NCBI GenBank assembly: GCA_022340485.1
Contig: JAJDNX010000071.1
Coordinates: 1 to 38,528 of the forward strand
Source: Gammaproteobacteria bacterium
GTDB lineage: Bacteria > Pseudomonadota > Gammaproteobacteria > UBA9214
Length of the DNA: 38,528 nt
Direction of reading: 5' to 3'
The notes under the pieces are model-generated. The model ran no database searches and was not told the origin of the DNA. It worked only from the letters and a program-made list of their open reading frames with translations. Each line of letters begins with the position of its first letter. The stretch's first letter is position 1. Shown here piece after piece: positions 31,513-33,526 of this stretch. The translations under genes and the position numbers were made by a program.

Positions 31513-32385
31513 TCAGGCAAGCATGGTCTTTTTCAGCTTGCCAAGCGCACTTTTTTCCAGCTGGCGGATGCGTTCGGCAGAAACATCAAAACGGGCGGCC
31601 AGTTCATGCAGCGTGCTTTTTCTGTCTGTCAGCCAGCGTTCTTCAAGGATGGTGCGACTGCGTTCGTCCAGCGTTGCCAGTGCCTCGCTCAGGTTACCGT
31701 TACTGTCGCTGCTCCAGTCCTCCTGCTCAATCATCAAAGCCGGATCGTTGGATGCGTCTGTGAGATAGGCAGCCGGTGCAAAGTGATGGCTATCTTCGTC
31801 GTCATCCTCCACCGTGAGGTCAAAACCGATGTCCTGGCCACTCAGTCGTGACTCCATCTCCAGCACGACTTCCGGTTTGACGCCAAGGTCGTCTGCAATG
31901 CCATTGACCTCTTCCTGGTTCAACCAGCCTAGGCGCTGCTTTTTGCTGCGCAGGTTAAAGAACAACTTACGCTGTGCCTTGGTGGTCGCCACTTTCACGA
32001 TTCGCCAGTTGCGCAAAATGAATTCATGAATCTCCGCCCGTACCCAGTGTACGGCGTAGGAAACCAGGCGCACACCGGCGTCCGGATCAAACCGTTTTAC
32101 TGCCTTCATCAGGCCAATATTGCCTTCCTGGACCAGGTCCCCCAGCGCCAGGCCATAACCGCTGTAACCGCGCGCAATGCGAATAACGAAGCGCAGGTGA
32201 GACATCACCAGGTCACGTGCCGCGTCCAGGTCACCCTCATTTTGCAGTCGCAGTGCCAGGGAACGTTCCTGCTCCGCGCTCAGTACGGGCACGCTGAATG
32301 CCGCCTGGATATACTGATCCAGATTGCCGGTGGGCGGTAATGCTACTGCAAGTGTCTGATTTCTGGTTACTAAAGCCTGTGTCAT
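31513..32385 (-). CDS. rpoH: RNA polymerase sigma-32 factor
   Basis: [88 protein letters not shown] (RpoH-type region 2/RpoH box). Confidence 0.97.
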
Positions 32386-32414: not shown

Positions 32415-32444
32415 ATCCTAGCACTCTTAACTATAGAGTGCCAA
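32415..32444 (-). promoter_or_regulatory. candidate sigma70-type rpoH promoter (TTGGCA-N18-TAGGAT)
   Basis: Minus strand TTGGCA (32444-32439), 18-nt spacer, TAGGAT (32420-32415), about 30-60 nt upstream of the rpoH ATG. Confidence 0.45.
32418..32444. promoter_or_regulatory. CIRCE element (HrcA operator) upstream of rpoH
   Basis: CTAGCACTC-TTAACTATA-GAGTGCCAA: 16 of 18 positions match consensus TTAGCACTC-N9-GAGTGCTAA with exact 9-nt spacer. Confidence 0.85.
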
Positions 32445-32539
32445 TTTCCTGATTAGTTCTCGTGAATTCGGTTTGCAGGCAGGTTTCTTGAGTGGCTTTC
32501 CTTGCTCGAGTGCGGTGGTACTGCCCGGGGTAACGCCCC

Positions 32540-33526
32540 TCAGCTGGGTTCAACGGCGTCCAGGTGGCGTCCGACCGCCAGCCAGGAGCCGAGCAGTCCA
32601 AGCAATGTGCCTGCTGCCAGTAATATCCCCAACAGCTGCACCGGGAGGGTCTCAAGGCTGAAGTCACTCTGGTAGAGACCGGCCAGCCGGGAGACCGGTT
32701 CGGATAACAGCCAAAAGCCCGCTTCCACCACCAGCCAGGCGATGAGCGCACCCAGCACACCGTACCAGATGCCGCCATAGAGAAACGGTCTGCGCACGAA
32801 ACCATTGGTTGCGCCGATGAGCTTGGTAACCAGGATTTCCTCGCGCCGGTTCTGGATTTCCAGACGAATGGTATTGCCAACGACAAGCATCACAGCCAGC
32901 GCCAGCAGCACGCTGATTATCAGGATGACACGATGTGCAATAGCCAGGATGGCCGCGAGGCGTTGCACCCACTGCAGGTCCAGCTGTGCCAGTTCGGTTT
33001 CCGGCAGCTGGCTGAAACGGTCACGCAGGGCACTGGCGGCAGCCGGGTCGATGTGGTCTCCTGCCGGTAGCACGATCATGACATAGGGTAGCGGATTTTC
33101 CTCCAATACCCCGAGGACATCTGCAAAGCTGGACTGCTGGCTAAATTCCTGCAGAGCCTGCGCCGGCGTGATCAGCTGCACGGATTCAACCTCGGGCCAT
33201 TCATCCACCTGAGCGAACAGCGCGCGTGCACTGTGGTCCGTGATGTCCTGCTTCAGGAAGATGGACAGGCTGGCTTGACCATCCCAGGAACCACTGAGTC
33301 GTTCAAGATTGCCTAGCAGCAGGTACAGCCCGGAAGGCATTGCCAATGCGATGGCGATGACGGCGGCAGTCATTAGCGTGGGAAGCCGGTTCCGGTACAA
33401 GCGTCCGAGGCTGTCGAGGGCGACCTGTGCGTGGCGTTGCAGGATGGTGCCCGGTGAGAGCATGCGACGCAGGTTGTCTTGCCAGTGGTGTTGTGACTGG
33501 CGCCGGTTTTTACGCATTCGGTTCAT
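32540..33526 (-). CDS. ftsX: cell division protein FtsX
   Basis: Permease with N-terminal cytoplasmic extension; LSIFLKQDITDHSARALFAQVDEWPEVESVQLITPAQALQEFSQ; downstream of ftsE. Confidence 0.95.
   Translation of the reverse strand: MNRMRKNRRQSQHHWQDNLRRMLSPGTILQRHAQVALDSLGRLYRNRLPTLMTAAVIAIALAMPSGLYLLLGNLERLSGSWDGQASLSIFLKQDITDHSARALFAQVDEWPEVESVQLITPAQALQEFSQQSSFADVLGVLEENPLPYVMIVLPAGDHIDPAAASALRDRFSQLPETELAQLDLQWVQRLAAILAIAHRVILIISVLLALAVMLVVGNTIRLEIQNRREEILVTKLIGATNGFVRRPFLYGGIWYGVLGALIAWLVVEAGFWLLSEPVSRLAGLYQSDFSLETLPVQLLGILLAAGTLLGLLGSWLAVGRHLDAVEPS

Follow-up and report, generated by a model that had tools for sequence, protein, structure and literature searches.

Introduction

In Bacillus subtilis, the repressor HrcA is kept active by the GroE chaperonin. 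In E. coli, the P3 promoter of rpoH is controlled by σE. To our knowledge, the textbook account of rpoH control is the E. coli model, and E. coli is without HrcA. The HrcA and σ32 regulons of beta-, gamma- and epsilonproteobacteria were reportedly surveyed by Permina and Gelfand in 2003.

The link between rpoH and CIRCE, the HrcA operator, is itself not new. For Geobacter sulfurreducens, Rodionov et al. (2004, PMC545781) predicted a CIRCE of perfect consensus at position −51 upstream of rpoH, and additional ones at hrcA-grpE-dnaK-dnaJ and groESL. For σE promoters, passages of two other papers give the AlgU/σE consensus as GAACTT-N16/17-TCTNN (PMC7641640), list the Shewanella rpoH promoter as GAACTT-N16-TCTAT (PMC4336711), and report that σE/AlgU controls the rpoH genes of both Shewanella and Pseudomonas (PMC4336711, PMC7641640).

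Here, we analyze the rpoH locus of a gammaproteobacterium (contig JAJDNX010000071.1) in a window that comprises the whole stretch of DNA studied, 38,528 nucleotides. On the strength of sequence comparison, we hold it quite probable that the element in front of rpoH is a composite promoter–operator, in which a CIRCE site lies across overlapping σ70-type and σE-type promoters and HrcA would block both. The apparent interlocking of CIRCE with a σE-type promoter at rpoH is what this analysis adds, with the reservation that a limited literature search, by title, abstract and matching passages, returned no description of such an arrangement.

A CIRCE operator lies over a σ70-type promoter in front of rpoH

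The rpoH locus contains the following genes and operator:

31513 to 32385, minus strand: rpoH, heat-shock sigma factor, 290 aa (TIGR02392, 405 bits; cut-off 323.1)
32540 to 33526, minus strand: ftsX, the upstream neighbor of rpoH (TIGR00439, 357.5 bits)
32418 to 32444, minus strand: CIRCE operator TTGGCACTC-TATAGTTAA-GAGTGCTAG, with two mismatches to the consensus and arms that are near-invariant in 18 family members

Measured against the applied consensus, TTAGCACTC-N9-GAGTGCTAA, the site TTGGCACTC-N9-GAGTGCTAG agrees at 16/18 positions and has the exact 9-nt spacer, and one of the two mismatches is the outermost base. Both the coordinates and the 16/18 count had been given correctly in an earlier note made from this DNA alone. 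On the minus strand, the operator (32444–32418) is followed 32 nt downstream by the rpoH ATG. By a uniform-base estimate, the chance of a CIRCE with at most two mismatches in the 154-nt ftsX–rpoH gap is 2.7e-6, and dinucleotide shuffles of the window yield 0.01 matches at three mismatches or fewer. At the same threshold, the whole genome (2.77 Mb) contains only two CIRCE-like sites, one at rpoH and the other at hrcA.

The promoter scan places a σ70-type promoter under this operator:

32439 to 32444, minus strand: candidate σ70-type −35, TTGGCA, within the left CIRCE arm
32415 to 32420, minus strand: candidate σ70-type −10, TAGGAT, with a TG extension, starting in the right CIRCE arm

The pair TTGGCA-N18-TAGGAT, which the earlier note had described as covered by CIRCE, is thus recovered; it matches 9/12 hexamer bases, with TG before the −10 and a spacing inside the 16–18 nt range. 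The closing AT of the −10 lies beyond the palindrome, and is invariant in the 18 family members and present at 75–83% of other rpoH sites vs 0/19 hrcA or groES sites. Conservation of these bases outside the palindrome suggests that the σ70-type promoter is conserved in its own right, in addition to the operator.

Predicted rpoH leaders measure about 23 nt from the σ70-type promoter and about 40 nt from the σE-type promoter described below. The earlier note had taken a leader of about 20 nt to be too short for an E. coli-type RNA thermometer. This argument fails because the pairing that makes up the rpoH thermosensor of E. coli takes place within the coding region, an arrangement compatible with a short leader. 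Heat could then act on rpoH mostly at translation, by way of a coding-region thermometer of E. coli type, while HrcA plays a minor part, and such control can coexist with a composite promoter–operator. We consider this rather unlikely. No Rfam match was found. Static folds open the start region only gradually with temperature, but the enterobacterial controls, for which start codons were roughly chosen, likewise fail to reveal the known switch, so that the folds do not decide between the two.

The left CIRCE arm may also serve a σE-type promoter

Whereas the overlap of CIRCE with a σ70 promoter was already part of the earlier reading of this region, a second promoter, of σE type, had been overlooked:

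32454 to 32459, minus strand: candidate σE-type −35, GAACTA, a conserved block in the family alignment and identical to the −35 upstream of the genome’s rpoE
32433 to 32437, minus strand: candidate σE-type −10, TCTAT, 16 nt from the −35, matched in box and spacing in front of rpoE

Together, GAACTA-N16-TCTAT spans 32459–32433, and its −35 agrees with GAACTT at 5/6 positions. The left CIRCE arm ends with the TC of TCTAT and the spacer opens with its TAT, so that this arm appears to provide the −10 of a candidate σE (RpoE) promoter as well. We note that the −10 in the window ends in T, vs A in many σE promoters. In the family alignment, AACTT is near-invariant 16 nt upstream of TCTAT, while its flanks vary.

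We counted a σE −35 as in register when it matched at 5/6 positions or more at a spacing of 15–17 nt. Such a box is found at 18/18 family rpoH sites (0.5 expected from shuffles), at 8/20 rpoH sites of the class (0.5 expected) and at 20/35 in another collection (0.6 expected), giving 28/55 outside the family (about 1 expected). Because these site sets overlap in ancestry, the recurrence of the register owes as much to common descent as to independent repetition. It is found at 0/19 hrcA or groES CIRCE sites.

The genome encodes rpoE (TIGR02939, 322.6 bits, above the cut-off), and 35 nt before its ATG lies GAACTA-N16-TCTAT, identical in boxes and spacing to the rpoH element. Of the 16 family rpoE loci whose upstream sequence reaches far enough, 15 carry GAACTA-N16-TC, 8 of these ending in TCTAT. 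Genome-wide, GAACTW-N16-TCTAT has three matches, two of them at rpoH and rpoE, vs four in a reversed control, and is therefore not enriched. At rpoH loci without CIRCE, σE-like boxes are common, including GAACTT-N16-TCTGA in enterobacteria, as judged by a looser scan that carries no computed chance background.

The third match in this genome (L159, C119:4501-4527) is located about 70 nt before a lipoprotein-like gene, and may be a further σE target or a chance occurrence.

HrcA might instead act over the σ70 promoter only, with GAACTA-N16-TCTAT incidental or inactive and σE without a role. Beyond the family, roughly half of the CIRCE sites at rpoH are without GAACTT in register, as this reading would have it, and the boxes in the window (GAACTA, TCTAT) are imperfect. 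It is nevertheless difficult to reconcile with an AACTT kept amid variable flanks, with a register held at 15–17 nt over distant lineages, and with the occurrence of the same boxes upstream of rpoE; we judge it distinctly improbable.

The rpoH operator is conserved and follows hrcA

The earlier note had made conservation of the inverted repeat in relatives a check on its reading. The CIRCE site upstream of rpoH is kept in 18/18 readable family members, and across relatives it tracks hrcA. Within the family, information amounts to 1.96 bits per position in the arms, 0.73 in the spacer and 0.55–0.62 in the flanks. Conservation extends over the full nine positions of both arms and includes GAGTG, for which a promoter has no use.

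Across relatives, CIRCE is found upstream of rpoH in 34/35 genomes with hrcA vs 3/12 without. The association persists in genomes at least 90% complete (25/26 vs 1/10, p=1.0e-6), as it does when each family is represented by a single genome (p=3.5e-5). Because the genomes share ancestry, these p values serve only as guides. Named genomes with the rpoH site include Dyella, Nitrosomonas, Trinickia, Pandoraea and Methylocaldum, among others. Nitrosomonas communis (L073) and Dyella flagellata (L046) are examples of culturable, non-pathogenic relatives in which hrcA and the composite site occur together. No CIRCE was found at the Pseudomonas, Vibrio and Enterobacterales rpoH loci examined, and hrcA is absent from the genomes of these groups that were searched for it.

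That the bases are kept as promoter elements alone, the palindrome being a by-product and HrcA inactive here, would fit the overlap of these elements with the CIRCE arms, but we reject it as highly improbable because whole arms are conserved, down to the promoter-irrelevant GAGTG, the site follows hrcA across the class, and hrcA-less Pseudomonas, Vibrio and enterobacteria have no CIRCE at rpoH although they keep σE-like boxes.

Several individual loci depart from the common pattern. In Luteimonas, Xanthomonas, a Lysobacteraceae genome and G034 (L031, L045, L062, L118), the rpoH operator arms are altered, with CAGTC replacing CACTC, and L062 and L045 carry the matching change in the opposite arm, suggesting that the sequence recognized by HrcA has shifted in this lineage. 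G038, which is 97% complete, has a CIRCE with one mismatch upstream of rpoH, yet no HrcA was found in it with PF01628. Upstream of its rpoH, G032 carries a tandem pair of CIRCE-like sites, and in G054, which has two rpoH genes, only one is preceded by CIRCE.

The probable HrcA regulon of the family

The presence of hrcA and of CIRCE before groES or dnaK in the same genome had likewise been proposed as a check. The genome has a single copy of hrcA (346 aa; TIGR00331, 336 bits vs a cut-off of 197.2; also PF01628). The gene is intact, precedes co-oriented grpE, dnaK and dnaJ, and has its own CIRCE-like site 46 nt upstream of the hrcA-grpE-dnaK-dnaJ operon. The part of the check that concerns groES could be followed only in a relative; a search of this assembly, which is 93% complete, yielded no groES, and the family member G016 has three CIRCE sites, the third about 60 nt before groES. 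With CIRCE at hrcA, at rpoH and, in G016, at groES, the HrcA regulon of the family probably comprises groESL, hrcA-grpE-dnaK-dnaJ and rpoH.

Many family hrcA loci (L002, L144, L145, L147, L151, L154) have a conserved TTATCATG block that follows CIRCE at a distance of about 6 nt and is possibly the −10 of the hrcA promoter.

Discussion

The match to CIRCE, its restriction to two sites in the genome, its conservation in the family and its tie to hrcA make HrcA control of rpoH likely. The earlier proposal of a CIRCE operator over the rpoH promoter is borne out by the sequence match and the promoter scan, and by the same conservation and tie to hrcA. Its further suggestion, that HrcA represses rpoH and so links the HrcA and σ32 regulons, gains support as likely from sequence, conservation and co-occurrence.

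In the composite promoter–operator that we favor, both σ70 elements overlap the operator and the left CIRCE arm would form the σE −10. As long as cells are unstressed, the GroE chaperonin would keep HrcA active, and HrcA would bind the operator and block both promoters; this role of GroE is an assumption carried over from Bacillus subtilis. Once GroEL is occupied by unfolded proteins, HrcA would release the operator and rpoH could be transcribed by σ70, while envelope stress would add a σE input. Other targets of HrcA repression would be the hrcA-grpE-dnaK-dnaJ operon itself and, in relatives, groES. From the sequence, its conservation, its co-occurrence with hrcA, and the motif identity with the rpoE upstream region, we infer that HrcA binds here and represses each promoter, that heat induces rpoH and that the σE promoter is active.

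More broadly, the evidence leaves about an even case for a conserved and undescribed beta- and gammaproteobacterial composite, where a single palindrome serves simultaneously as HrcA operator, σE −10 and σ70 −35/−10, so that HrcA would gate both the housekeeping and the envelope-stress input to σ32, and lineages that lose hrcA would keep the σE-driven control of rpoH known from E. coli and Pseudomonas. Here, and in most of the sampled beta- and gammaproteobacteria with hrcA, an HrcA repressor regulon appears to stand above the σ32 regulon, and its operator appears interlocked with the type of σE promoter known from the rpoH genes of Pseudomonas, Shewanella and E. coli. Should this hold, E. coli could have a pared-down version of a switch with three inputs, which is testable in culturable relatives.

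Comparison with known systems

The locus shares with Geobacter sulfurreducens, a deltaproteobacterium in the terms of that study, a CIRCE upstream of rpoH, perfect there and with two mismatches here, and the published passages on the Geobacter site note no overlap with σE or σ70 promoters (PMC545781). With the classical CIRCE sites at groESL and hrcA-dnaK operons it has in common the palindrome and the N9 spacer, and the family groES and hrcA sites share the motif. Unlike the rpoH site, CIRCE at groES of relatives is immediately preceded by a promoter of the TTGACA/TATNAT type, and σE boxes in register are missing from groES and hrcA sites alike. The rpoH genes of Shewanella and Pseudomonas are preceded by a promoter of the GAACTT-N16/17-TCTNN type (PMC4336711, PMC7641640), which the candidate boxes here resemble. 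The P3 promoter of E. coli rpoH is of this type as well. In these σE-using comparison genera, the rpoH loci examined revealed no CIRCE and the genomes searched are without hrcA, in contrast to the present locus, where the σE-type boxes and the HrcA operator occur together and hrcA is intact.
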